Below are positions 59 through 11,900 of a stretch of DNA of 14,030 nt, one piece after another; position 1 is the first letter of the stretch, and every line of letters starts with the position of its first letter. Made by a program: the position numbers and the translations under genes. The DNA is taken from NCBI GenBank assembly GCA_900551195.1, contig URVD01000023.1, positions 1 to 14,030 of the forward strand, read 5' to 3'. Origin of the DNA: an uncultured Collinsella sp. (GTDB lineage: Bacteria; Actinomycetota; Coriobacteriia; Coriobacteriales; Coriobacteriaceae). The notes under the pieces are model-generated. The model was not told where the DNA came from and did not search any database. It saw only the letters and a program-made list of their open reading frames with translations.

Positions 59-841
59 TTATTGGGCTGTGGCAGTGAAGGTTGTTTTGTCGGCGGCGAT
101 GTGCACGTGCAGCTTTGCCTGACCGTCGCAGCTGATGAGCACGCCTACCTCGAACGGGGTTCCCGTCTTGTCGTAAGTCGAACGCACGATGCGCATCGCC
201 GCCTTACCGGTGTTCTGTCCCAAAAGGCGCGCCTCATGCTTGTCGAGGTTGACCGTCTCGTAGACGGCATCGACGCTTGCGGGCAGGATGCCGGTCTTTT
301 CCGCGATATAGGCGTAGAGCGAGCCATCCACGTCTTTGCGTGTGAGCTCGGGGCAAAGTGACACGGGGATATAGACGTAGTTGAGCTCCATGGGTTTGTC
401 GTTGGCGAGACGCAGGCGGCGAATCTCCCAGACGGGTGTCCCTTCGGGCACTTTGAGCCCGGAGGCGATGCCGCGGACGGCCGGTATGCTTGAAAAGGCG
501 AGAATCTGTGAGCTCGGAACCCGTCCCGCTTCGCGCATCCGCGCGCTGAAATTCAGGGCCAGGTCGATGCCGGGCGCTGAGGTTTGGGGCTTGATGAACG
601 TGCCCTGCCCGCGTTTGCGCACCACGCGCCCCTCGATGACGAGATCTTGGAAGCAACGGCGCACGGTCGCGCGCGATAACTCCAGCCGCTCACAGATTTC
701 GAGCTCGCGTGGCAGCGGCGTCTTGGTGTCGAACGCCTGGCTGGCGATAAGCAGGGCGATTCGATGTTTAAGTTGGACATAGAGCGGCGTATCACCGCTG
801 CGATCGAAGGGTTCGGAGGCGAGAAACGAGATCATGTCCAT
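59..841 (-). CDS. GntR family (HutC/UTRA type) transcriptional regulator
   Basis: Predicted cytoplasmic DNA-binding repressor of 260 residues. Residues 18-84 form the GntR winged helix: TPLYVQL opening, a recognition-helix region LSRATVRRCFQDL, and the closing RGQGTFI wing. Residues ~95-250 match the UTRA effector domain (for example the EIRRLRLANDKPMELNYVYIP stretch and a final VGVLISCDG strand). In this family UTRA binds small ligands, often phosphosugars, which release the protein from its operator. I chose the ATG at 839-841 because GGAGG (848-852, minus strand) lies 6 nt before it; the frame is open further upstream, but the start at 874 has no such site. The gene is divergent from a mannose-type PTS operon, the usual position for a local regulator of uptake. 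The effector is unknown; a PTS-derived sugar phosphate is the natural guess. The recognition helix carries an unusual RRC rather than RQA/RRA. Family call is firm, target and ligand are inference. Confidence 0.93.
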   Translation of the reverse strand: MDMISFLASEPFDRSGDTPLYVQLKHRIALLIASQAFDTKTPLPRELEICERLELSRATVRRCFQDLVIEGRVVRKRGQGTFIKPQTSAPGIDLALNFSARMREAGRVPSSQILAFSSIPAVRGIASGLKVPEGTPVWEIRRLRLANDKPMELNYVYIPVSLCPELTRKDVDGSLYAYIAEKTGILPASVDAVYETVNLDKHEARLLGQNTGKAAMRIVRSTYDKTGTPFEVGVLISCDGQAKLHVHIAADKTTFTATAQ

Positions 842-847
842 GGGGTA

Positions 848-852
848 CCTCC
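848..852 (-). promoter_or_regulatory. ribosome binding site that sets the gntR start
   Basis: On the minus strand this reads GGAGG, followed by 6 nt and the ATG at 841. It supports a 260-residue product rather than the 271-residue extension. Confidence 0.8.
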
Positions 853-876
853 ATGTCGTGAGCGTACGTGACATGG
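851..876. repeat. inverted repeat overlapping the gntR ribosome binding site
   Basis: CCATGTC (851-857) and GACATGG (870-876) are perfect inverted copies separated by 12 nt. The outer arm touches the GGAGG at 848-852, so a folded leader or a bound protein here would cover the translation start. It could be an autoregulatory operator; the arms contain ATGT and ACAT, the half-sites seen in the putative GntR operators, but at a much wider spacing. Confidence 0.35.
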
Positions 877-924: not shown

Positions 925-939
925 TATGTATGGTACATA
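925..939. promoter_or_regulatory. putative GntR operator A (perfect dyad)
   Basis: TATGTA-TGG-TACATA is a perfect 6+3+6 palindrome. Read as half-sites it is ATGT-N5-ACAT (926-938). Its outer GT...AC pattern fits the general GT-N(n)-AC style of GntR-family operators. It is 84 nt upstream of the gntR start codon. A matching element stands ahead of the PTS operon (1067-1079) and ahead of the GH31 gene (5399-5411). Confidence 0.5.
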
Positions 940-1020
940 AGGAACATAAAACATTTACCAGGCAATCTACCTGCTATTTTAAAAATAATTGGAAGAAAAA
1001 ATAATTTAGGCACAAAAATA

Positions 1021-1035
1021 GTTGCTACCGTTAAC
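1021..1035. promoter_or_regulatory. putative MarR-type operator 1
   Basis: gttgctaccgttaac is an imperfect dyad of the form GTTGC-N5-TTAAC. It is preceded by AATA, as in the adjacent perfect palindrome at 1041-1063, and its centre lies 24 bp from that of the palindrome. The same layout, gttgcgaatgttaac, recurs at 4461-4475 ahead of the MarR-family gene. Confidence 0.45.
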
Positions 1036-1040
1036 CGATG

Positions 1041-1063
1041 AATAGTTGCCGTTCGCAACTATT
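1041..1063. promoter_or_regulatory. putative MarR-type operator 2 (perfect 9-bp inverted repeat)
   Basis: AATAGTTGC-N5-GCAACTATT is a perfect inverted repeat with 9-bp arms. The core GTTGC-N5-GCAAC has the half-site shape and spacing of operators bound by MarR-family proteins; MexR, for example, recognises GTTGA-N5-TCAAC. It ends 4 nt before the putative GntR operator B, so the two would stack side by side at the PTS promoter. The binding protein is not proven; the MarR homologue at 4500-4976 is the best local candidate. Confidence 0.55.
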
Positions 1064-1066
1064 TTC

Positions 1067-1079
1067 TTGTACCGAACAT
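1067..1079. promoter_or_regulatory. putative GntR operator B, PTS-proximal
   Basis: TTGT-ACCGA-ACAT has the same half-site arrangement as operator A. Its last 12 bases, TGTACCGAACAT, are identical to positions 5400-5411 upstream of the GH31 gene. It ends 70 nt before the EIIA start codon, compared with 75 nt for the copy at the GH31 gene. Confidence 0.5.
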
Positions 1080-1149
1080 GCCCCGGCGCAACAATAATCT
1101 CGGCAAAAAGCAAAGCCGTGCGACACACGGCAGGTCGAGAGGAGACCGC

Positions 1150-1584
1150 ATGCGGTATCTGGTAATGGTCAGTCACGGAACGCTCGCTCCCGGACTGCAC
1201 AGTGTCCTCAAGATGCTCGGCAATGACGCCCCGAACATCTTGTCGACGAGTCTCGTGGACGGCATGGGCGCTGACGAGTATGTCGAGAACGTCAAGGCGA
1301 TGCTCGCTCCTGTTACCGCCGATGACGAGGTTGTCCTGCTTGGTGACATCCTGGGCGGATCGCCGCTCACCAATGCCATGAACACGCTGGCCGAGAAGGG
1401 CCTGCTCGCCCACACCATTGCCTTCGGCGGTATGAATCTGCCCATGGCTATGACCGCCATGATGGGGCTTGCCACCATGGACCTGGATTCCCTCAAGCAG
1501 ATGATGCTGCAGGAGGGCAAGAACGGTATGTCCGAGCTCGTTGTCCCGACCGATGACGCCGATGACGAGGACGACGACATCTAG
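1150..1584 (+). CDS. PTS mannose-type EIIA component
   Basis: Cytoplasmic phosphocarrier of 144 residues that accepts phosphate from HPr and passes it to EIIB. The N-terminal strand MRYLVMVSHG matches the mannose-family EIIA opening, with the phosphorylated histidine at His9. The later GDILGGSPLTNAMNTLAE segment (the GGSP loop) and VTADDEVVLLGD are also typical. Length fits a stand-alone EIIA rather than the fused EIIAB of E. coli ManX. The ATG at 1150 is preceded by AGGAG (1140-1144) with 5-nt spacing; an in-frame start at 1078 would run through the operator region and is unlikely. The C-terminus is strikingly acidic, TDDADDEDDDI, and resembles the tail of EIIC two genes later. First gene of a four-gene EIIA-B-C-D operon. 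Sugar specificity cannot be read from EIIA. Confidence 0.92.
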   Translation: MRYLVMVSHGTLAPGLHSVLKMLGNDAPNILSTSLVDGMGADEYVENVKAMLAPVTADDEVVLLGDILGGSPLTNAMNTLAEKGLLAHTIAFGGMNLPMAMTAMMGLATMDLDSLKQMMLQEGKNGMSELVVPTDDADDEDDDI

Positions 1585-1616
1585 GCAGCGCATCCGCCCA
1601 AATTTTTGTGATGGAG

Positions 1617-1641
1617 CGGGGGTTAAGAGGAAAGACCCCCG
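1617..1641 (+). other. intercistronic hairpin between EIIA and EIIB
   Basis: CGGGGGT (1617-1623) pairs perfectly with ACCCCCG (1635-1641) around an 11-nt loop. No U-run follows, so it is unlikely to be a simple terminator; it may limit mRNA decay or tune expression between the two genes. It is followed by ataaagaaaggg, which is repeated after the next intercistronic hairpin. Confidence 0.5.
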
Positions 1642-1663
1642 GTGATAAAGAAAGGGAGAACGC

Positions 1664-2152
1664 ATGATTTCGTTCATCCGTATTGACGACCGTATGATCC
1701 ATGGACAGACCGTTACCCGTTGGGCCCTCGAGTATCCCTGCGACGGTCTTATCGCCGTCAACGACGCTGCAGCGTCCAACCCCGTGCTCAAGGAGGCCTA
1801 CAAGAGTGCCTCGGGCAAGAAGACGTTCGTGTGGACCAAGGAGCACTTTAAGGAGGTCTCCGAGAAGGTTCTCAAGTCCGACACCAAGTACTTCCTGATC
1901 ACCAAGAACCCGCTCGACATGAAGGAACTTCTCGTCGATTTTGGCTTTAAGCCCGGCATGGACCGTATCATCGTCGGTCCCTGCAACGATCGTCCCGGCA
2001 CCACCAAGCTCGGCAACAACCAGTCGATCACGCAGGAAGAGGCCCAGGCGCTCGAGGATCTCACCAACGCCGGCTACACGGTCGAGTTCGCCCTTATCAA
2101 GGAGAAGTCCATCGGTGAGTGGCCCAAGTTCCGCGGTCAGTTTGGCTTCTAG
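1664..2152 (+). CDS. PTS mannose-type EIIB component
   Basis: Cytoplasmic 162-residue phosphotransfer protein that takes phosphate from EIIA and gives it to the sugar as it passes through EIIC/EIID. The diagnostic N-terminal motif RIDDRMIHGQ is present, with the phosphorylated histidine at His13. The following WALEYPCDGLIAVNDAAA and the DMKELLVDFGF and RIIVGP segments are normal for the family, as is the length. The start is well supported by AAGGGAGA at 1652-1659. It follows EIIA by 79 nt containing a hairpin, and precedes EIIC by 72 nt containing another. This EIIB subfamily covers transporters for mannose, fructose, sorbose, N-acetylgalactosamine and related sugars; I cannot separate these from the sequence alone. 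Confidence 0.95.
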   Translation: MISFIRIDDRMIHGQTVTRWALEYPCDGLIAVNDAAASNPVLKEAYKSASGKKTFVWTKEHFKEVSEKVLKSDTKYFLITKNPLDMKELLVDFGFKPGMDRIIVGPCNDRPGTTKLGNNQSITQEEAQALEDLTNAGYTVEFALIKEKSIGEWPKFRGQFGF

Positions 2153-2180
2153 TTAGGCGCCAGCCGCATTTTGGTATCTA

Positions 2181-2202
2181 CAGCCCTTGGTGAAAGGGGC
2201 TG
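2181..2202 (+). other. intercistronic hairpin between EIIB and EIIC
   Basis: CAGCCC (2181-2186) pairs with GGGCTG (2197-2202) around a 10-nt loop, directly before aataaagaaagggga and the EIIC start. The arrangement of hairpin then ataaagaaaggg then ATG copies that in front of EIIB, although stem sequences differ. Confidence 0.45.
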
Positions 2203-2224
2203 AGGAATAAAGAAAGGGGAAAGC

Positions 2225-3082
2225 ATGGCAATCAATGCATTCCAAGCCGCGCTGTTCGGCCTGTTCGCCTGCCTGGCATCACTGCCTGGCATGGGCGGCA
2301 CGACGATCGGCAACTACACTCTGGGTCGTCCTCTGGTCGCCGGCCTCATCGTCGGCATCATCATGGGCGATATGCAGACGGGCATCCTCGTCGGCGCTGC
2401 CATCCAGGTTGTCTACATCGCTCTCGTGACCCCCGGCGGAACCGTCTCCGCCGACGTCCGCGCCGTGTCCTATATCGGCATCCCGCTGGCGATCCTCGCC
2501 ATCAAGAACTCGGGCATCGATCCCGCCTCCGCTGAGGCTGCCGGCATGGCCGCATCCCTCGGTGCCGCCGTCGGCACGCTCGGCACTGTGCTCTTCTATG
2601 GCACCGCCACCATCAACCTGGTGTGGCAGGGCATGGGGTGGAAGTGGCTCGAGAAGGGCGATCTCCACAAGCTCTACCTGGTCAACAACGTTCTGCCTTG
2701 GATTGGTCACATCGTCTGCTCGTTCCTCCCGACGTTCATCATCACCATGGGCGGCACCGCCATGGTCGACCTCATGAAGACCTACATGCCCATGGACGGC
2801 ATCGCGATGAAGACGCTGTTCACCGTCGGCTCGCTGCTGCCTACCGTCGGTATCGCCATCCTGCTCAAGCAGGTCATCTCCAAGCCGACGGACTTCCTCA
2901 CGTTCTTCTTCGGCTTCACCCTGTCCGCTGTCATGGGATGCAACCTGATTGCCGCTGCCGGCATCGGCTGCTTCTTCGCCCTGATCAACTATGAGATCGC
3001 TTCGCTCAAGATCGACCTCGCAAACGCTCCCAAGGCAGCTATCGCCTCGGGCTCCGATGATGAGGAAGAGGAGGACATCTAA
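2225..3082 (+). CDS. PTS mannose-type EIIC component (membrane)
   Basis: Integral membrane subunit of 285 residues that, together with EIID, forms the sugar channel. Nearly the whole chain is hydrophobic helix. Family landmarks include GGTTIGNYTLGRPLVAGLI (residues 24-42) and GAAIQVVYIALVTPGGTVS (57-75). The start is supported by AAAGGGGA at 2213-2220. The chain ends in an acidic tail, SDDEEEEDI. The codons of this tail contain AGGAGG (3069-3074), a strong ribosome binding site placed 7 nt before the EIID start, and the stop codon overlaps that start as TAATG. EIIC and EIID are therefore almost certainly translationally coupled, fitting their obligate complex. Specificity is not determinable here. 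Confidence 0.95.
   Translation: MAINAFQAALFGLFACLASLPGMGGTTIGNYTLGRPLVAGLIVGIIMGDMQTGILVGAAIQVVYIALVTPGGTVSADVRAVSYIGIPLAILAIKNSGIDPASAEAAGMAASLGAAVGTLGTVLFYGTATINLVWQGMGWKWLEKGDLHKLYLVNNVLPWIGHIVCSFLPTFIITMGGTAMVDLMKTYMPMDGIAMKTLFTVGSLLPTVGIAILLKQVISKPTDFLTFFFGFTLSAVMGCNLIAAAGIGCFFALINYEIASLKIDLANAPKAAIASGSDDEEEEDI
3069..3074 (+). promoter_or_regulatory. EIID ribosome binding site inside the EIIC coding sequence
   Basis: AGGAGG lies in the Glu codons of the EIIC acidic tail, with 7 nt to the ATG at 3082, which overlaps the EIIC stop TAA. It decides the EIID start and suggests translational coupling. Confidence 0.8.
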
Positions 3083-3909
3083 TGGCAGAGAAGAAGAAAC
3101 TCTCTAAGAAAACGCTTGCCAAGTCGTTCCGCAACTGGTCCTATGGCAACCTGACTTGCTTCTCGCAGGAGCACATGCAGACCTTCGGTTACTTGTGCGC
3201 CATGCTTCCGATCGTCGAGGAGCTCTACGACACGCCCGAGGAGCAGAAGCAGGCCCTCCAGACCTACTCCGCGTTCTTCAACACCGAGCCGCAGATCGGC
3301 ACCATGATTGTCGGCGTCACCGCCGGCCTCGAGGAGGCTCGCGCAAACGGCGAGGCCATCGACGACGACGCCATCAACGGCATCCGCGCCGGCCTCATGG
3401 GCCCGCTCGCCGGCCTTGGCGACTCGCTGATCGTCGGTACCCTGATCCCGATCCTGCTCGGTATCGCCCTCGGTCTCTCGACCGGCGGCTCCCCGCTCGG
3501 CGCTATCTTCTATATCGTCGTGTGGAACCTGCTCATGTACCTCGGCATGCGCTTTGCCTACAACCAGGGCTATGAGCTCGGCGGCAAGGCAGTCGAGGCA
3601 CTGGTCGGCCCCAAGGCCAAGGCTCTGCGTGATTCCATCGTGATGGTCGGTACCATGGTCATCGGTGCCGTGGGCGCAACTTGGGTCTCCATCACCTGCA
3701 GCCCCAACCTGGTGCTGCCCGGTGGCGGTAAGTTCCAGGACACGCTCGATGGCATCTATCCGCACCTGCTGCCGATGGTCTTCATCATCTTCTGCTGGTA
3801 CATGATGACCAAGAAGAAGGTCAACCCCATCGTTATGATGCTGATTCTCGTCGTGATCGCATTCGTGGGCGTTGTTATTGGCTTCTTCGACCCGGCACTG
3901 AGCTACTAG
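3082..3909 (+). CDS. PTS mannose-type EIID component (membrane)
   Basis: Membrane partner of EIIC in the mannose-family permease, 275 residues. The N-terminal cytoplasmic part (SFRNWSYGNLTCFSQEHMQTFGY, where RNW...N...QE is conserved) and the hallmark MGPLAGLGDSL segment (from residue 106, with Asp113) are clear. The C-terminus has closely spaced hydrophobic helices, ending in VIGFFDPALSY. Length is within the usual EIID range. Last gene of the operon, overlapping EIIC by 1 nt and followed after 22 nt by a strong rho-independent terminator. No metabolic gene (deacetylase, isomerase, aldolase, phosphofructokinase) is joined to this operon, so the imported sugar phosphate must be processed by enzymes encoded elsewhere. 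Confidence 0.95.
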   Translation: MAEKKKLSKKTLAKSFRNWSYGNLTCFSQEHMQTFGYLCAMLPIVEELYDTPEEQKQALQTYSAFFNTEPQIGTMIVGVTAGLEEARANGEAIDDDAINGIRAGLMGPLAGLGDSLIVGTLIPILLGIALGLSTGGSPLGAIFYIVVWNLLMYLGMRFAYNQGYELGGKAVEALVGPKAKALRDSIVMVGTMVIGAVGATWVSITCSPNLVLPGGGKFQDTLDGIYPHLLPMVFIIFCWYMMTKKKVNPIVMMLILVVIAFVGVVIGFFDPALSY

Positions 3910-3931
3910 TCATCATCCCCTGGCCCCCTGT

Positions 3932-3969
3932 AAGGCCGTGCGGCCTCAACCGCACGGCCTTCTGATTTT
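3932..3969 (+). terminator. rho-independent terminator of the PTS operon
   Basis: AAGGCCGTGCGG (3932-3943) and CCGCACGGCCTT (3950-3961) form a perfect 12-bp stem with a 6-nt loop, followed by ctgatttt. It lies 22 nt after the EIID stop. The strong stem makes read-through into 4105 unlikely. Confidence 0.85.
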
Positions 3970-3980
3970 GCGCCGCCCTT

Positions 3981-4039
3981 CAAGGGCAATATGGCCAGCG
4001 ACCTCCATCGCCTACACGACACCCGCTATATTGCTCTTG
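3981..4039 (+). repeat. long-loop inverted repeat upstream of the small membrane protein gene
   Basis: CAAGGGCAATAT (3981-3992) and ATATTGCTCTTG (4028-4039) are inverted copies with one G-T pair, separated by 35 nt. The first arm also overlaps a tight palindrome, GCCCTT-C-AAGGGC, at 3975-3987. The TATATT at 4027-4032 resembles a -10 box for the next gene, but no clear -35 is visible. Function unknown: leader structure, operator or chance. Confidence 0.3.
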
Positions 4040-4104
4040 AAAGATGACGTATTCGACAAACGATGCACTTGCGCATGATGCACACTTTGCACGAGGAGGA
4101 CCAT

Positions 4105-4431
4105 ATGCACGAGAAACATGGACACGACCTTTCGCGCGACGACTTGATTCGCGAGGCAAAGATGCAGACCGATGCTATTCAGCGGCTCAACGTTTGGCTG
4201 CGCCTGGGCTATTCGCTCGTGGCGATTGGCTTTTTGATGGGGATGTGGGGTATGCAGGGCGGCCCCGGCTGGGGCGTCCCCGCGGGCATCGTATGCTTGG
4301 TGGTGGGCACTCCGCTTTCGATTGTGCTTAAGGTTGGCACGACCAACGCCAAAAAGAATGTTGAGCGTATGCTCGAGGCCGCGGGTATCGACGTTGAGGA
4401 GCTTATGCGACGCAAGAAGGACGAGCAATAG
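4105..4431 (+). CDS. small two-helix membrane protein of unknown function
   Basis: I do not recognise a named family. The 108-residue product has a polar, His- and Asp-rich N-terminus (MHEKHGHDLSRDD) and a short amphipathic segment to about residue 33. Two hydrophobic segments follow (~34-50, with GFLMGMWGMQGG, and ~57-77, with GVPAGIVCLVVG). The charged C-terminus, NVERMLEAAGIDVEELMRRKKDEQ, looks helical. The topology is probably a hairpin with both ends in the cytoplasm, consistent with the positive charges around the helices. The start at 4105 is preferred because GAGGAGG (4093-4099) lies 5 nt before it; in-frame starts from 4063 lack such a site. The next gene, 68 nt downstream on the same strand, is a MarR regulator with its own putative operator in the gap, so the two may or may not be co-transcribed. 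Confidence 0.75.
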   Translation: MHEKHGHDLSRDDLIREAKMQTDAIQRLNVWLRLGYSLVAIGFLMGMWGMQGGPGWGVPAGIVCLVVGTPLSIVLKVGTTNAKKNVERMLEAAGIDVEELMRRKKDEQ

Positions 4432-4460
4432 ACTTCCGCGTTGGGGTATCATAAATAATT

Positions 4461-4475
4461 GTTGCGAATGTTAAC
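4461..4475. promoter_or_regulatory. putative MarR-type operator 3, ahead of the MarR gene
   Basis: gttgcgaatgttaac repeats the layout GTTGC-N4-GTTAAC of 1021-1035; the two share the whole frame apart from the four central bases, and both continue with an ATG three bases further on. It lies 24 nt before the MarR-gene ATG, directly before a TAATGT (4476-4481) that could be the -10 box. This placement suits autoregulation. Confidence 0.45.
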
Positions 4476-4499
4476 TAATGTACGGCAAATGACGGTTTT

Positions 4500-4976
4500 A
4501 TGGCCCTTCTAGAGTTGCAAAGGACAATATCCCCAGTGGATTACGATGACGTCGCTCGAAAACTGATTGTGTACTCACGTTCCCTTGCCAAGGGATCCTT
4601 GAGTGCTGCCGGCGGCGCCAGTGTGGGCGAGGCACCGGTTTTACAGTATCTATCGGGTATTGACGGTGATGTTATTCCCTCCGAGATTGCCAAGAAGCTG
4701 AAATTCTCCCGTGCGCGCATGTCGCATATCTTGGATTCACTCGAGAGCAAGGGTTACGTTCAGCGCAGGGCCGATCCAAACGATCGTCGGCGTGTGCTGG
4801 TGAGCATTACCGAGGAAGGCCGTGATTTCGCGGCGAAAAAAAATGCCGAGAGTGTGGCATCGCTCTCGAAGCAGCTCTCAGCGCTCGGCGAACACGATGC
4901 TCAGGAGCTCGTGCGCATCCTGAATAAAGCCTACAGCCTTACCTATGATGCCGACGACTACCTGGACAATCTATAA
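4500..4976 (+). CDS. MarR family transcriptional regulator
   Basis: Small dimeric DNA-binding protein of up to 158 residues. The MarR winged helix is clear: GDVIPSEIAKKLKFSRARMSHI (helix-turn-helix) followed by LDSLESKGYVQRR and the wing DPNDRRRVLVSITEEG, in which D-x-R-R and the T-x-x-G ending are classical. Flanking helices at both ends would form the dimer interface. The start is uncertain: the ATG at 4500 has no visible Shine-Dalgarno site, so it may be translated from a leaderless or near-leaderless transcript. A GTG at 4536 has AAAGGA (4519-4524) at a long spacing of 11 nt and would remove 12 residues. A dyad at 4461-4475 suggests autoregulation, and matching dyads ahead of the PTS operon suggest a wider role. 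Ligand unknown. Not an antibiotic-resistance call; nothing here supports one. Confidence 0.9.
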   Translation: MALLELQRTISPVDYDDVARKLIVYSRSLAKGSLSAAGGASVGEAPVLQYLSGIDGDVIPSEIAKKLKFSRARMSHILDSLESKGYVQRRADPNDRRRVLVSITEEGRDFAAKKNAESVASLSKQLSALGEHDAQELVRILNKAYSLTYDADDYLDNL

Positions 4977-4995
4977 GGATGAAGGCAGACATTTA

Positions 4996-5015
4996 GGTGC
5001 ATCTTGAAATGCACC
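4996..5015 (+). terminator. weak hairpin after the MarR gene
   Basis: GGTGCAT (4996-5002) and ATGCACC (5009-5015) form a perfect 7-bp stem with a 6-nt loop, 19 nt after the MarR stop. No U-run follows, so terminator activity is doubtful. Confidence 0.3.
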
Positions 5016-5118
5016 CGGGACAGTTGTGCCCATTGACTACCGTCAGCATCTCATTCCAAACCAAATCAGCCAACGTACGTCATGGCAATCCCCGGTAGGT
5101 TGCAGGATGGCGGCTGAG

Positions 5119-5164
5119 CCTTTCCCTCGGGAAACTTCGCGAAGCCCAGTTCCCGAGGGAAAGG
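5119..5164. repeat. strong 15-bp inverted repeat with an inner palindrome
   Basis: CCTTTCCCTCGGGAA (5119-5133) is perfectly complementary to TTCCCGAGGGAAAGG (5150-5164). The 16-nt loop contains a second perfect palindrome, CTTCGCGAAG (5135-5144). No U-run follows on either side. Possibilities are a bidirectional transcript barrier, a leader structure for the GH31 mRNA, a protein-binding cruciform, or a remnant of a small mobile repeat. I do not recognise it as a known riboswitch. Confidence 0.6.
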
Positions 5165-5176
5165 TATGGTCTGTGT

Positions 5177-5237
5177 AATACCAGATAAACAGTACATTTT
5201 TGCTAGATTGGTATTTGACTGAAGAACCAATTGGTAT
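5177..5237. repeat. cluster of TTGGTAT / ATACCA motifs
   Basis: AATACCA (5177-5183), TTGGTAT (5208-5214) and ACCAATTGGTAT (5226-5237) give one inverted and two direct copies of the same word; the last includes the perfect palindrome ACCAATTGGT. GGTATGG also occurs at both 5163-5169 and 5233-5239. This looks like a set of protein-binding half-sites, but the protein is unknown. Confidence 0.3.
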
Positions 5238-5282
5238 GGCTTATTAAGCCCACCTTGCCGTTGACGCTTATTTTGCTGCCGC

Positions 5283-5319
5283 TGGGAGAATTCCGAACTT
5301 GGGTGCGCAAGTGCTCCCA
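5283..5319 (+). other. two-tier hairpin in the GH31 leader
   Basis: TGGGAG (5283-5288) pairs with CTCCCA (5314-5319), enclosing an inner stem ACTTG (5297-5301) with CAAGT (5308-5312) around a 6-nt loop. It has an asymmetric internal loop of 8 and 1 nt. It is a plausible RNA fold if the transcript starts upstream. Confidence 0.3.
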
Positions 5320-5398
5320 TATGTTGATATGACCTAGTAGGTGGCTATCTGGTTACTACCAGTTGGCCCCTTGGTAACGGGTGGCCCCATTGTGCGGA

Positions 5399-5411
5399 AT
5401 GTACCGAACAT
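5399..5411. promoter_or_regulatory. putative GntR operator C, ahead of the GH31 gene
   Basis: ATGT-ACCGA-ACAT is a dyad with perfect 4-bp arms. Bases 5400-5411 are identical to 1068-1079 upstream of the PTS operon and the half-sites equal those of operator A beside gntR. It ends 75 nt before the GTG start of the GH31 gene. Confidence 0.5.
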
Positions 5412-5486: not shown

Positions 5487-8400
5487 GTGCGCAGGAATTC
5501 CATTTTTACGAAACGGTGGGTGAAGGGAAGCGCGGTCCTCGTTGCCACTGCAGCGACGCTCGTGTTTGCCAATCCCCAACAGGCGATTGCCACGCCACTC
5601 AAGGGCGTCGACTCAGCGACCGTGTCACAGTCTGCCTCGAATGTCGTCGACATCGATTTCGCTGACGGCATCAAGGGCCGTATTACGTTCCTCGAGGACG
5701 GTATTTTCCGTTATAACGTCGACCCCAAGGGTGAGTTTTCCGATTACGCCACACCGCGCAGTAAGTCCCACACGGCTAAAATCCAGGCTCAGCCCGATAC
5801 CTCGGACACCTACAGCAAGCCGAGTGCGACGGTTGCCGACAAGGGCGACACTATCGAGATCACCGGCGGAAAGGCGACCGTGATCCTGGACAAGGCGACC
5901 GGCAAGATGAGTATCAAGTCAGGCGACCGTGTCGTGGTTTCCGAGTCCGCGTCCCTCGACCTTGATAAGAAGGGTACCGTCCAGACGCTCGCCAAGGAGA
6001 AGTCCGAGAACTTCTTTGGCGGCGGCACCCAGAACGGACGCTTCCTGCACACCAACCAGACCATCGCCATCTCCAACACGAACAACTGGACCGATGGCGG
6101 CGTTGCCTCGCCCAACCCGTTTTATTGGACGAGTGACGGCTACGGCGTACTCCGAAACACGTTTGCAGAGGGTTCCTACGACTTCGGTTCCACGGACTCA
6201 TCGACGGTCACGACTTTGCACAGCGAGAATGAGTTTGATGCCTACTACTTCGTGGCGACCAACGAGGGCGCTTCGAACGTGGCAACCGAGATGCTGCAGG
6301 ACTACTACAAGGTGACCGGTAACCCGGTACTGCTGCCCGAGTACGGGTTCTACCTCGGTCATCTTAATGCCTATAACCGTGATGGCTGGTCAACGACCTC
6401 GGGTCAAAAGAAGTGGGAGACCAAGGGCAGCAAGTCCTCGAGCGAGAAGGGCGACGTTAAGTACGAGTCTGGCATGTCGACGGGCTACAAGCTCGACGGC
6501 ACACTTGCGGCCGAGACGCTCAACGGTGAGGGCCCTACGGTTGATACCGAGAACATGAAAGCGACCGATTTCGACCGCCAGTTCTCTGCTCGTCAGGTTA
6601 TCGATGACTACGAGGACAACGACATGCCGCTCGGCTGGTTCCTGCCGAACGACGGTTACGGCGCCGGCTATGGCCAGAACGGTTACTACAAGACCGGCGG
6701 CGTCAACTCCGACGGAGCGAGCTCGGCCGACCGTCTTAACGCTGTGCGTGCCAATGTCGACAACCTTAAGAAGTTCACCGAGTATGCCAACTCCAAGGGT
6801 GTGAGCACGGGCTTGTGGACCCAGTCCAACCTTGAGCCCGACAGCAACCCTGAGACCCCGTGGCATCTGCTTCGCGACTTCGACGCCGAGGTCAAGACGG
6901 GAGGCATCACTACCCTTAAGACCGACGTTGCCTGGGTTGGATCTGGCTACTCCTTTGGTCTTAATGGCATCAAGACAGCTTATGACACGGTGACGACCGG
7001 CGCTAACAAGCGCCCCAACATCATCACGCTCGATGGTTGGGCCGGCACGCAGCGCTTTGGTGGCATTTGGACCGGCGACCAGTATGGCGGTAACTGGGAG
7101 TACATTCGCTTCCATATCCCCACGTATATCGGTCAGAGTCTTTCGGGCAACCCCAACATCGGCTCCGACATGGATGGCATCTTTGGCGGCGACCCCATCA
7201 TCTCTGCGCGTGACTACCAGTGGAAGACGTTCACGCCCTCTATGCTTGACATGGACGGTTGGGGCACCTACCGTAAATCGCCCATGACGCACGGCGATCC
7301 CTACACAGGCATCTCGCGCTTCTACCTCAAGCTCAAGGCGCAGCTCATGCCCTATATCTACACGAGCGCGGCCTCGGCGGCCAACATCGACACGGGTAAC
7401 GGCGATGCCGGCCTGCCCATGATCCGCGCCATGCTGCTTTCCGACAACTCCGAGTACGCCGCAAGCACTTCGACGCAGTACCAGTATATGTTCGGTGAGA
7501 ACTTCCTAGTGGCACCGGTGTATCAGGATACCCAGGCAGACGAGAACGGCAACGACATTCGCAATGGGATTTACCTCCCCAACTACGGCACCGACGAGAA
7601 TCCCACCATCTGGATCGATTACTTCTCGGGTAAGCAGTATCGCGGCGGCCAGGTTCTCAACAACTACGAGGCTCCGCTTTGGAAGCTGCCGCTGTTTGTG
7701 AAGGCCAACGCTATCGTGCCGATGTACGCCGAGAACAACAACCCCGAGGCCGTGAGCGACACCAACACCAAGGGTACCGACCGCAGCCAGCGTATCGTCG
7801 AGTTCTTCGCCACCGAGGGCGACGGCACCTTTACGCAGTACGAGGACGACGGCTCCTCCATCGAGAACAACACGACTGAGGACGATTCCTACGGCACGAT
7901 CGACAATATCTCCTACGGTGAGCATGTGAGCACCGTCTACAGCTCCAAGGCCGCAGGCGGCACCGCGACCTTTACCGCCGAGGCCTCGCAGGGCGGCTAC
8001 AACGGCTACGACTCCAACCGCACCACGACCTTCGTGGCCAATGTGTCCGCCAAGCCCACGAGCGTTGTCGCCAAGAACGGCGGATCCGCACTCAACGTGG
8101 TTGAGGTCGACTCGCAGGAGACCTTTGACGCCGCGACCCCCGAGGCCGGCCAGGCGGTCTACTTCTACAGCGAGACCCCCAACCTCAACCACTACGGCAG
8201 CGATGCGGACGGCACCGAGGCCGAGCAGGGCGAGAGCTTCAACAACACCAAGATCACCACGAACCCCAAGGTCTACGTCAAGTTCGCGAAGACCGATGTT
8301 GCTGCAGCGGCGCAGACGCTTGAGCTGGGCGGTTTCGTGAACGCCGACGCCACGCTCACAGCCGATCGCCTCAACGAGAACCTCTCCGCACCCACGAACC

Positions 8401-11400
8401 TTGCTGCCCCCGAGGACGCCACGACCCCAACGAGCATCAAGCTCACCTGGGGAAAGGTCGATGGTGCTACCTCCTACGACCTTAAGGTCGACGGCACTGT
8501 GTTTGCCGTGGGTGATGCGGCCGAGTTCACGCACACCGACCTCGCCTACAATAGCAAGCACACCTACCAGATTCGTTCGCGCAACGCCGAAGGTTACTCC
8601 GCCTGGAGCGATGTGCTCGAGGCGAACTCCGCACTCGATCCGTGGCGGAACGTCCCCGACGCCGAGGAAATCACCTGGGAGGGCTCACTTTACGGCAGCC
8701 ATAAGGCCGAGCTCGCCTTCGACCATGAGTTCCAGTCGGGCGACGGCGGTTTCCACTCCGGTGGCAACGATCTGGGCAAGGCGCTTACCGTTGACTATGG
8801 ACGCGCTTACAAGCTCGATAAGCTCGAGTACTATCCGCGCGATGACGCCGGCAACGGCACCGTGACCAAGATGCGTGTTGAGACGAGTCTCGATGGCGTC
8901 CACTGGACGAGCCAGGAGGTCGATTGGGCACGTTCCGCTGATTGTAAGACGGTAGCGTTTGACGGCACCGTGGCCGCCCGTTACGTGCGCATGACACCGC
9001 TCGCCTCGGTCGGCAATTTCTTCTCCGCGTCCGAGATTGCCATCTACAAGACCGACGGCACGGATGGCTTCGCCGTGGGCTCCAACCTCAACAAGGCCAC
9101 GATCTCCGACGGAGACTACTCCAACATGAAGAACTATCTGGGCCTCGAGAATCGCGAGCCCGATACCCCGACGTTCGGTTCGCAGATCCGCGACCACTTC
9201 GCCGACCTCAACGATAACGGCGTTTACGACGTCTACGATTACTCGTTCACCATGGCGGGTCTTGACGGCGGCACTAAACAAAAGGGCAAGGTCGCAGGTT
9301 CGCTCGCGGTGATTCCGAGCAAGACCGAGGTCGAGGCCGGTGATGAGATCACCGTTGATGTCTATGCGGCCGACGCCAAGAACGTCAACGCCCTGGGCGC
9401 CCTCGTCAACTTCAAGAGCGACCAGTTCGAGTTTGTGTCCGAGAGCATCGCGCAGGACGGCTCGACTGCCGGCATGGAGAACCTGTCTCGCGAGAAGGTC
9501 CAGTTCGTGGACGGAACGCAGACTATCAATCTCGCCTTTGCCAACCGCGGCGATGGCAAGCTCTACAACGGTACTGGCGCGGTGGCGAGTTTCAAGCTCA
9601 AGGCCAAGACCGCCGGAAAGGTCGAACTGCCCTCGACATCTTGGCTTATCGGCCCGGCATGCGACGCACTTGAGTTTGCGAGCGACGGCACGGTGACGAT
9701 GCCGGACGTTCCTCAGCCAACGGTCGCCGAGTACGCCCAGGATGCCTTCAACATCACGATGACCAACGATGAGCTCACGACCGACGACGGGACCAACGTC
9801 GAGAAACTTATCCAGCAGAAGAGCTATAACGCGCTGTTCGATAATAACGAGGGCGACAACGGCTTTGAGTTCCTGTGGAACTGGAGTGGCAACTGGGACA
9901 GCGAGGGTAAGCTACCGAGTTACGTGAAGCTTCCCACCACGATGACATTCGCATTTAAGACGCCGTCGAAACTCGATAGCGTCGAGGTCGTTAACCGCAA
10001 CGGCGGCAACGGAACCGTACAGAAGATCAAGGCCGTCGTGACGTTCGAGGATGGCTCGATCCAAGAGTTCGCGGGCGGGGAGTACGATTCCTTCCTGGCT
10101 CGCTACGCCTTTGACCTCTCTGCCGAGAACAAGGGCAAGAAGGCGACCAAGGTCGAGGTCACGCCGCTTGAGGCATCGGGTGACCAGATGCTCACACTGC
10201 GTGAGGTCAACTTCAACTACACGCAGGGTGTCGAGGCCATCGAGGGTGTCGAGCTAGGCAAGAACCAGACCGAGTTCTTTGAAGGCGACATTACGCCCGT
10301 CGACGCCAAGGCTACGCCTGAGAGCGCTGGCTACCCCTATGTGACGGTCGAGAGCTCCGACCCCTCTGTGGTAAGCGTCTCCGCTGTTCAGGCTGGCGAT
10401 AGCGTGAGCTACTACCTGCGTGCCAACAAGGCCGGCAAGGCAAAGATCACGGTGGCGTCGGTACTCGACCCCTCCAAGACCGCATCCTATGAGGTCGAGG
10501 TCAAGGCTGGTGTCGATACCTCTGCGCTCGTGGCAGCGCTTTCCAAGGCCGCGGGCTACAGCGAGTCCGTCTACACCAAGGATTCCTATGCAGCTCTCAC
10601 CACTGCGGTCGAGGCGGCTCGGAAGCTCCTCGACAGCGGCCAGGGCAGCTATAGCAAGAAGGATGTCGCAGACGCCACTGCCAAGATCGAGAAGGCAATC
10701 GACGGCCTCAAGATGCGCCCTGTCGATGAGAAGATCCTCATCAACACGCCCGAGAACCGCAAGAACGTCAAGGTGGCCGACTTCTCGAGTGAGGCCGACT
10801 ACGAGGGCAGCAACGCCGTCAACGCTCTCGACGGCGACGAGCGGACGCTTTGGCACAGCGACTGGGCCCATGGGACCGGTATGCCCCAGTATCTGAGTGT
10901 CGACCTGGGCCGCGACTACGATCTCACCGACGTTACATTCCTGCCGCGCCAGGACGGCGGCACTAACGGCGATATCTTCGAGGCCGAGATACTGGTCTCC
11001 GACACTGCCGACGGTTATGAGATGGGCACCGCCGCGTCGATGGGTACGTTCGCCTTCGACAACGACGGCCGCGTGCTCACCGACCGTGGCGACTGGAAGC
11101 AGATGAGCTTTGGCGCCGCGCGCGGTCGCTACGTGACCGTCAAGGTGATTCACGCCGGCGGTGGCGACGTTGATGCCTACTGCAGCATGGCGGAGCTCAA
11201 GTTCTACGGTACGGCCGTCCCCGATCCGGTGGCGAAGGATGATCTCGCTACCGCGATCGAAAAGGTTGATGCCGAGGTTGCTGCCGGCGACCTCAAGGCC
11301 GGTGACTACACCGAGGCCTCCTGGACGGCGCTCGAGAACGCCCTGGCGAGCGCCCGCGCCATCTTGAGTGACGAGAACGCCACGCAGGACGAGGTCGACC

Positions 11401-11900
11401 AGGCGCTCAGGGCGCTCGAGAGCGCCCGCGGCGCGCTCGAGAAGACCCCGGTGGCCCCGGTCGAGAATCCGACTAAGAAGCAGCTCAAGGCTCTGGTCAA
11501 GCAGGCGAAGGAGACTGACACCAGGGGCAAGACGGCCGAGTCTGTCAAGGCCCTGACGGATGCCATTACCTACGCCGAGGACGTCTTGGGTGATGAGGAT
11601 GCTTCCGACACCCAGATCCAGGCGGCCTATGGCCAGCTCAAGCTGGCCATTGAGAGCCTCAAGGATGCCGATTCCGGCAACCAGGGCGGCTCGGGCAACC
11701 AGGGTTCCGGCAATGGCTCGAACGGCGGCAACCAGGCGGGCAAGCCCGCAGGCGACAAGGCCCAGGGCAGCAAGAAGAACGGTTCGGCGATTCCCAATAC
11801 CGGAGACCAGACGGCGGCGACCGTCGCGACCGTCGGTGGTCTTGGCGCCATCATCGCCGCGATCGGCGCTTTCTTCCATCGTCGCAGCAAGGCTAAGTAG
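5487..11900 (+). CDS. giant wall-anchored GH31 glycosidase, possible alpha-N-acetylgalactosaminidase
   Basis: Secreted 2137-residue enzyme. Residues 1-35 form a signal peptide (RR...KRWVKG, then a hydrophobic run, likely cut after A28 or A35). A GH31 N-terminal beta domain leads into the (beta/alpha)8 barrel from about residue 284 (PEYGFYLGH). The predicted nucleophile is Asp480 in LKTDVAW and the predicted acid/base Asp531 in WTGDQ. The GH31 C-terminal beta domains include LPLFVKANAIVPM (~732) and TQYEDDGSS (~780). Then follow FN3 (~968-1048), a CBM32-like domain (~1050-1188), a dockerin-like loop DLNDNGVYDVYD (1240-1251), a cohesin-like domain (~1270-1403), a second discoidin-like domain (~1411-1578), an Ig-like (BIg2) domain (~1583-1674), FIVAR (~1676-1742), a further CBM32 (~1749-1908), two FIVARs (~1915-1986, ~1996-2059), a Gly/Asn/Ser linker and the sorting signal IPNTG (2102-2106) with membrane helix and RRSKAK tail. 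The KTDVAW context and FN3/CBM32 tail resemble GH31 O-glycan alpha-GalNAcases; substrate is inference, family is firm. Confidence 0.92.
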   Translation: MRRNSIFTKRWVKGSAVLVATAATLVFANPQQAIATPLKGVDSATVSQSASNVVDIDFADGIKGRITFLEDGIFRYNVDPKGEFSDYATPRSKSHTAKIQAQPDTSDTYSKPSATVADKGDTIEITGGKATVILDKATGKMSIKSGDRVVVSESASLDLDKKGTVQTLAKEKSENFFGGGTQNGRFLHTNQTIAISNTNNWTDGGVASPNPFYWTSDGYGVLRNTFAEGSYDFGSTDSSTVTTLHSENEFDAYYFVATNEGASNVATEMLQDYYKVTGNPVLLPEYGFYLGHLNAYNRDGWSTTSGQKKWETKGSKSSSEKGDVKYESGMSTGYKLDGTLAAETLNGEGPTVDTENMKATDFDRQFSARQVIDDYEDNDMPLGWFLPNDGYGAGYGQNGYYKTGGVNSDGASSADRLNAVRANVDNLKKFTEYANSKGVSTGLWTQSNLEPDSNPETPWHLLRDFDAEVKTGGITTLKTDVAWVGSGYSFGLNGIKTAYDTVTTGANKRPNIITLDGWAGTQRFGGIWTGDQYGGNWEYIRFHIPTYIGQSLSGNPNIGSDMDGIFGGDPIISARDYQWKTFTPSMLDMDGWGTYRKSPMTHGDPYTGISRFYLKLKAQLMPYIYTSAASAANIDTGNGDAGLPMIRAMLLSDNSEYAASTSTQYQYMFGENFLVAPVYQDTQADENGNDIRNGIYLPNYGTDENPTIWIDYFSGKQYRGGQVLNNYEAPLWKLPLFVKANAIVPMYAENNNPEAVSDTNTKGTDRSQRIVEFFATEGDGTFTQYEDDGSSIENNTTEDDSYGTIDNISYGEHVSTVYSSKAAGGTATFTAEASQGGYNGYDSNRTTTFVANVSAKPTSVVAKNGGSALNVVEVDSQETFDAATPEAGQAVYFYSETPNLNHYGSDADGTEAEQGESFNNTKITTNPKVYVKFAKTDVAAAAQTLELGGFVNADATLTADRLNENLSAPTNLAAPEDATTPTSIKLTWGKVDGATSYDLKVDGTVFAVGDAAEFTHTDLAYNSKHTYQIRSRNAEGYSAWSDVLEANSALDPWRNVPDAEEITWEGSLYGSHKAELAFDHEFQSGDGGFHSGGNDLGKALTVDYGRAYKLDKLEYYPRDDAGNGTVTKMRVETSLDGVHWTSQEVDWARSADCKTVAFDGTVAARYVRMTPLASVGNFFSASEIAIYKTDGTDGFAVGSNLNKATISDGDYSNMKNYLGLENREPDTPTFGSQIRDHFADLNDNGVYDVYDYSFTMAGLDGGTKQKGKVAGSLAVIPSKTEVEAGDEITVDVYAADAKNVNALGALVNFKSDQFEFVSESIAQDGSTAGMENLSREKVQFVDGTQTINLAFANRGDGKLYNGTGAVASFKLKAKTAGKVELPSTSWLIGPACDALEFASDGTVTMPDVPQPTVAEYAQDAFNITMTNDELTTDDGTNVEKLIQQKSYNALFDNNEGDNGFEFLWNWSGNWDSEGKLPSYVKLPTTMTFAFKTPSKLDSVEVVNRNGGNGTVQKIKAVVTFEDGSIQEFAGGEYDSFLARYAFDLSAENKGKKATKVEVTPLEASGDQMLTLREVNFNYTQGVEAIEGVELGKNQTEFFEGDITPVDAKATPESAGYPYVTVESSDPSVVSVSAVQAGDSVSYYLRANKAGKAKITVASVLDPSKTASYEVEVKAGVDTSALVAALSKAAGYSESVYTKDSYAALTTAVEAARKLLDSGQGSYSKKDVADATAKIEKAIDGLKMRPVDEKILINTPENRKNVKVADFSSEADYEGSNAVNALDGDERTLWHSDWAHGTGMPQYLSVDLGRDYDLTDVTFLPRQDGGTNGDIFEAEILVSDTADGYEMGTAASMGTFAFDNDGRVLTDRGDWKQMSFGAARGRYVTVKVIHAGGGDVDAYCSMAELKFYGTAVPDPVAKDDLATAIEKVDAEVAAGDLKAGDYTEASWTALENALASARAILSDENATQDEVDQALRALESARGALEKTPVAPVENPTKKQLKALVKQAKETDTRGKTAESVKALTDAITYAEDVLGDEDASDTQIQAAYGQLKLAIESLKDADSGNQGGSGNQGSGNGSNGGNQAGKPAGDKAQGSKKNGSAIPNTGDQTAATVATVGGLGAIIAAIGAFFHRRSKAK

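Follow-up and report, generated by a model that had tools for sequence, protein, structure and literature searches.

The window, a 14,030-nucleotide stretch of contig URVD01000023.1 from an uncultured Collinsella sp., harbors the gene of a GntR-type regulator (gntR1), the genes of a phosphotransferase system (PTS), a marR gene and a long gene encoding a glycosidase of family GH31. The GH31 promoter contains two predicted operators, termed sites D and C. Site D would place the GH31 gene in the aga regulon of a second GntR-type regulator, GntR2, and site C would provide a second input from GntR1, a reading to which we assign a probability of about 0.58. Among the comparison genomes, G001 is closest to the window (85% of sampled words in common). 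The genes are arranged as follows.

59..874, minus strand: gntR1, HutC-type GntR regulator (Pfam GntR 3.1e-12, UTRA 2.4e-33)
1150..1584, plus strand: PTS EIIA of the mannose family (EIIA-man 1.6e-17; ATG at 1150)
1664..2152, plus strand: PTS EIIB (PTSIIB_sorb 4.5e-34)
2225..3082, plus strand: PTS EIIC (EII-Sor 2.5e-56)
3082..3909, plus strand: PTS EIID (EIID-AGA 1.9e-87)
4063..4431 (start possibly 4087), plus strand: small open reading frame (ORF) accompanying the PTS, with 51-61% relatives behind the PTS in G020, G055 and G056
4500..4976, plus strand: marR regulator (MarR_2 2.2e-13; 54% to the G020 protein)
5487..11900, plus strand: GH31 glycosidase of 2137 amino acids (domains F5/8 type C and FIVAR; C-terminus IPNTG-like)

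GntR1 is composed of an N-terminal GntR winged helix-turn-helix domain and a C-terminal UTRA domain, which is the domain arrangement of the HutC subfamily. In this respect it resembles NagR/YvoA of Bacillus and DasR of Streptomyces, which are also its closest solved proteins (E ~7e-27). PMC4333415 and PMC4918961 describe both as repressors of aminosugar genes, with DNA binding that responds to sugar phosphates. Since the relatives of GntR1 align from about residue 12, the true start of gntR1 may be near 841. The PTS (1150-3909) scores under the NCBIfam Aga equivalog cut-offs (AgaF 61/130, AgaW 76/300, AgaE 111/500 bits), and the small ORF finds no match in Pfam or NCBIfam. The start codon of the GH31 gene is GTG in the window and in G031, and ATG in G001 and G019. 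GH31 residues 69-695 match PDB 7f7r, a GH31 alpha-N-acetylgalactosaminidase (E 1.8e-168), and the catalytic part is like the enzymes of PDB 7f7q, 7f7r and 6m76, the last named an LPXTG anchor protein. Unlike the 7f7q/7f7r enzyme, the window protein is much longer and has extra F5/8 type C and FIVAR domains. It is probably a surface alpha-N-acetylgalactosaminidase of the mucin type.

The promoter features are listed below. For GntR1-type sites, mismatches are counted over the 16 arm positions of the 20-bp dyad TGTACGGT-N4-ACCGTACA, with the N4 spacer left free; ATGTACGGTACAT is a 13-mer derived from distant GntR1 relatives and thus independent of the window.

927..946, no strand: site A in its 20-bp register, TGTATGGT-ACAT-AAGGAACA, predicted GntR1 autoregulatory operator (4/16 mismatches)
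1027..1037, plus strand: ACCGTTAACCG element of the PTS promoter, with similar repeats before the PTS in G020, G055 and G056
1041..1063, no strand: inverted repeat AATAGTTGC-CGTTC-GCAACTATT in the PTS promoter, with perfect 9-bp arms
1067..1079, no strand: site B, matching the 20-bp operator only through its half-site ACCGAACA at 1071-1078 (9/16 mismatches)
4478..4490, no strand: GntR1-like half-site TGTACGGC (4479-4486) before marR, with 2 mismatches to ATGTACGGTACAT and 7/16 in the 20-bp register
5349..5362, no strand: site D, CTGGTTACTACCAG, CTGGT-TACT-ACCAG, predicted GntR2 (aga regulon) operator
5391..5410, no strand: site C in its 20-bp register, TGTGCGGA-ATGT-ACCGAACA, predicted GntR1-type operator (3/16 mismatches)

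The block that holds site D is the best conserved of the GH31 promoter. In an alignment of 10 GH31 promoters, 151 of 458 columns vary; the D block has one varying column in 20 and the C block two, and C is invariant over 16 bases in all 10. The commonest count of varying columns in a 20-column window is 7, and only 20 of the 420 windows have 2 or fewer. The D dyad also extends beyond these close relatives. Of the 21 Collinsella GH31 matches, 18 have CTGGT-N4-ACCAG with at most one mismatch in the 400 nt ahead of the gene (exact in 14), including 10 of the 13 distant GH31 genes (62-68% identical). Exact D is present in 13 of 76 named GH31 loci, all labelled Collinsella or Coriobacteriaceae.

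The same dyad belongs to the aga cluster. Among the 30 gntR2 loci examined (of 48 gntR2 matches), 28 have the D dyad behind gntR2, and an agaS start is recognised after it in 24 of those 28. In addition, ten aga loci contain D before agaS without exception (exact), and nine of them also before EIIA (one mismatch; G025 is the exception). GntR2 is itself a GntR plus UTRA (HutC) protein, 29% identical to GntR1, and its gene is accompanied by a GalNAc-type PTS, an AgaS-family gene and the dyad at the cluster promoters, the combination expected of the HutC regulator of an aga cluster. All 43 genus genomes have a gntR2 match at E <= 1e-70. The IIB protein of the cluster passes both applicable cut-offs (GalNAc 198.3/180, galactosamine 196.2/180); IIA (128.5/130), the AgaS family (400/529), AgaW (231/300) and AgaE (280/500) remain below theirs. 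Taken with the match of GH31 to an alpha-N-acetylgalactosaminidase, this GalNAc-like cluster suggests that enzyme and cluster point to one sugar. D also resembles a dre-site of the NagR/DasR type. GntR2 further resembles AgaR of Streptococcus pneumoniae, a GntR repressor that, according to PMC5018945, adjoins a PTS-agaS operon and responds to N-acetylgalactosamine.

The D dyad occurs at other positions as well. Stretch L328 of G016 has exact D (CTGGTTACTACCAG) at 2641-2654, 10 nt before an open frame at 2665-5001 for a protein that looks secreted and has F5/8 type C domains; its likely start is about 180 nt after D, and it lies about 6.5 kb before GH31. Other CTGGT-N4-ACCAG places are inside reading frames (L325, L327, L329), near the start of an ammonium-transporter-like frame as judged by eye (L326), or in G022 (L112).

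The evidence for site C comes from relatives of GntR1 elsewhere in the order, which are 40-51% identical to it. Such proteins, window-type copies included, are present in 30 of 395 order genomes. We examined 25 non-window loci, leaving out L291 (G090, match from residue 65), the second G125 copy, and G019/G031/G035, which are of the G001 type. The 20-bp dyad precedes the regulator gene in 12 of the 25 with 0-4 mismatches: the best 20-mer has 0-2 mismatches in six, three in three and four in three. It is perfect (TGTACGGTATGTACCGTACA) before the relatives of G055 and G167, differs at one position in G061 and G166, at two in G056 and G109, at three in G120, G121 and G123, and at four in G119, G102 and G091. 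The GT and AC of this dyad are separated by N4, which agrees with the 4-nt spacing given for most HutC operators in PMC4494728.

This register corrects an earlier description of the locus. The sequence-only reading had reported three WTGT-N5-ACAT dyads, and these are found as written: ATGTATGGTACAT (A, 926-938), TTGTACCGAACAT (B, 1067-1079) and ATGTACCGAACAT (C, 5399-5411), with B ending 70 nt before the EIIA ATG at 1150, C ending 75 nt before the GH31 GTG at 5487, and B and C sharing the 12 bases TGTACCGAACAT. A common 12-mer on either strand arises in 33 of 2000 dinucleotide-shuffle trials of the two upstream regions, and the match taken alone is modest evidence. The N5 spacing departs from that of most HutC operators, and the 13-mers are off register with respect to the 20-bp dyad with GT-N4-AC. 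Aligning related upstream regions, as that reading had proposed, finds C kept in GH31 promoters, but the A and C 13-mers themselves break: A is no longer symmetric in G001, G031 and G035 (GGTGCAT), and the final T of C is not kept in G007, G010, G012 and F5. In the 20-bp register the A-to-G change is within the N4 spacer and the last-base change is outside the site.

The two best 20-mers of the whole window are 5391-5410 and 927-946; the next has five mismatches. When the GH31 upstream region is dinucleotide-shuffled 2000 times, one shuffle reaches the score of C; for the gntR1-PTS region, 21 of 2000 reach that of A. Throughout the G001 genome, two places are within three mismatches of the 20-mer, one of them C, against eight for the reversed control pattern. 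In G007 and G012, C has two mismatches and is the only such place among the matches listed. Because A and C match the dyad that precedes distant gntR1 genes, they can plausibly serve as GntR1 operators, through which the regulator would act on its own gene and on GH31.

As a genome-wide search pattern, WTGT-N5-ACAT is too frequent for use and was dropped: the proposed whole-genome scan gives 40+46 strand rows in G001 (2.4 Mb), and the window has 29 rows within one mismatch versus 10.6 expected. The 13-mer ATGTACGGTACAT is more selective in the window, where it occurs within two mismatches at A, B, C and 4478-4490 only (six rows; shuffle mean 0.10, and 0 of 200 shuffles reach six). In G001, 4 of its 19 distinct places within two mismatches are inside this 4.5-kb cluster. 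Four near-operators in 4.5 kb suggest local enrichment; genome-wide, the counts equal the reversed control. A scan with ATGTACCGAACAT at no more than one mismatch finds matches in 29 of the 43 genus genomes, mostly distant from GH31 and PTS genes. At nine loci with near-operators, the G006 GH31 promoter among them, no GntR-like frame was recognised by eye, no profile search having been made.

The motifs, footprints, positions and gene families involved are read directly from the sequence. From them we infer binding, repression and ligands as follows. Two HutC-type GntR repressors would act on GH31 through two predicted operators about 45 bp apart. Site D would belong to the resident aga regulon, whose GntR2 is encoded elsewhere in the genome in a GalNAc-type PTS-gntR2-agaS cluster, and GntR2 would shut GH31 off until a sugar phosphate of the aga pathway, its presumed ligand, releases it. 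Site C is of the GntR1 operator type, and GntR1 would be supplied by the neighbouring gntR1-PTS-orf-marR island, with A as the site of its own gene. The PTS has only half-site B, and MarR or another factor may control it. HutC repressors acting like this are otherwise well known. The arrangement here is unlike that of NagR/DasR in its GntR1 operator arms (TGTACGGT/ACCGTACA) and in having two different HutC operators on one promoter. This sequence-based prediction names two regulators, with an exact operator for each, of a probable mucin-type alpha-N-acetylgalactosaminidase from a genus common in the human gut, and ties the GH31 enzyme to the genome's N-acetylgalactosamine-type operon. In the open-access literature searched, with subscription papers outside its scope, nothing was found on Collinsella GntR operators, a Collinsella GalNAc regulon or a Collinsella GH31 alpha-N-acetylgalactosaminidase.

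Several observations weigh against this explanation. Regarding D, the dyad before GH31 is absent or at shuffle level in G029, G015 and G039, and each one-mismatch site before GH31 recurs in 5-13 of 500 shuffles, which, as in the scan of GntR1 relatives for the 20-mer, preserve single-base composition only. D was not found behind gntR2 in G036 and G042 among the 30 loci. Moreover, G002, G003, G006, G008 and G009 have only gntR2 relatives of 71-74%, and G006 retains exact D before GH31 with an aga regulator that is only 73% alike. Four stretches with such relatives were inspected, from G006, G008 and G009. In G006 and G009 one relative adjoins an agaS of 97-98%, with PTS IIB/IIC/IID 28-32% alike and IIA 59%, and no D within one mismatch lies between this relative and agaS. 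The second relative of both genomes and the inspected one of G008 have a one-mismatch D just before their own gene. Regarding C, 13 of the 25 GntR1 relative loci lack a convincing 20-mer (in G097 a 13-mer does match), and ATGTACGGTACAT gives 21 rows across G001 versus 20 for the reversed control. B is kept in the four island genomes aligned, but these genomes are near-identical, which makes the shared presence of A and B a poor guide. Five GH31 promoters that lack the gntR1-PTS island preserve C just as well (G006, G007, G010, G012 and F5, the last examined at its GH31 locus only), and the genomes of G006, G007, G010 and G012 contain no GntR1 relative (E <= 1e-45) and no EIIC relative (E <= 1e-80).

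The own-gene dyads of the 72% relatives are located at 2871 of L331 (G006), 8149 of L333 (G008) and 4832 of L332 (G009). The 72% relative is a possible further member of a D-reading family, and the second relative could be the D reader in G006. As for C, either the island was lost in the strains that keep the site alone, or another HutC protein also reads it. In the GH31 tree the island-free G006 pairs with G019 (84/84), and the purE-srtB tree groups otherwise, so the trees do not decide.

Among the other explanations, the strongest, which we regard as possible but doubtful, concerns the PTS: the island MarR would be its main regulator, and GntR1 would regulate itself and, in other arrangements, an HAD phosphatase. 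The sequence-only reading passed over the MarR gene, yet MarR relatives (52-54%) are directly before this PTS in G020, G055 and G056. In G055 and G056, an HAD hydrolase gene diverges from gntR1 and leads into MarR, EIIA-EIIB-EIIC-EIID and the small ORF; the order in G020 is MarR-PTS-ORF-HAD, and the best GntR1 match in that genome is only 30%. These arrangements suggest that GntR1, MarR and this PTS are old partners. Of 26 short loci around GntR1 relatives, the bait's own among them, 11 have an HAD hydrolase gene nearby. However, no MarR operator could be footprinted, and the inverted repeat at 1041-1063, which differs at two bases in G031 and at one, within the spacer, in G035, does not recur in that form in G020, G055 or G056.

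It is unlikely that GntR2 or a relative alone governs GH31 by binding both D and C, with GntR1 uninvolved in GH31. This would account for the conservation of C where GntR1 is missing, and the centre of C recurs in certain D sites of other GH31 genes (CTGGTACATACCAG in G028 versus CGGTACATTCCG in C, minus strand). The arms of C, however, are the TGTAC of the GntR1 operator and not CTGGT/ACCAG. Furthermore, upstream of the 13 distant GH31 genes even the best GntR1-type 20-mer has five mismatches, yet D is frequent among them.

Slightly less probable still is the model of the sequence-only reading, in which the local GntR1 is the sole regulator of its own gene (site A), the PTS operon (B) and GH31 (C). 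A and C do fit the operator of distant GntR1 relatives, and the clustering of ATGTACGGTACAT places in G001 is in its favor. For the PTS the case is poor: in the 20-bp register, B and the match ahead of marR amount to half-sites, and G055 and G056 have no 20-mer within four mismatches before their PTS. Weaker half-sites of GntR proteins are described beside full operators in PMC4494728; B has no adjoining full site, so GntR1 control of the PTS is weakly supported. The dispersed regulon was a fair idea, but a purely local GntR leaves unexplained why C is kept without the island and why D is common to the aga operon. That model is incomplete, the better-supported regulator of GH31 being GntR2 of the aga cluster via D. 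Finally, the frequency of WTGT-N5-ACAT and of shuffles reproducing the shared 12-mer or a 20-mer of A quality would suit chance resemblance of the three dyads, which is very improbable given that C and A are picked out by an operator derived independently, from distant relatives, and that C is within a conserved block.

The island is restricted in distribution. Near-identical gntR1 is present in 4 of the 43 genus genomes (G001, G019, G031, G035), and more distant relatives within the family are in G039, G055, G056 and G061. In G001 the gntR1-PTS-orf-marR block lies between carB and GH31; in G035 it adjoins carB on one contig and GH31 on another; for G019, no carB match was found over 2.2 kb ahead of gntR1, and in G031 the contig stops at this point. 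No GH31 match was found in the G020, G055 and G056 stretches carrying MarR-PTS. G006 and G010 have about 0.9 kb from carB to GH31 with no island between, and G007 and F5 contain other cargo there. The carB-GH31 gap may be an insertion spot. Tentatively, a repressor-transporter island may have settled beside a surface glycosidase gene whose promoter already had that repressor's operator; the promoter would integrate resident GntR2/aga and island-borne GntR1 signals with different ligands, and strains would differ in enzyme switching. Strains with and without the island provide a natural comparison.

Several further elements were observed around these genes. A hairpin with 12-bp arms at 3932-3961, behind EIID, is a likely terminator. 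An ACCGTTNRCCG-like element is repeated before the PTS of G020, G055 and G056 (L092, L229, L230) at a spacing of about 21-31 nt and also occurs before the G001 aga operon (L108); a copy lies within 450 nt before 7 of the 13 distant GH31 genes and none in the close G001 GH31 promoter. In G007 (L094) the carB-GH31 gap contains what look by eye like genes of an AAA-type ATPase and a small antitoxin. A hairpin-rich element precedes GH31 at 5109-5163; in G001 an inverted copy of it (87%) lies between carB and gntR1 (L032 1717-1770), so that the island is flanked by two copies there.

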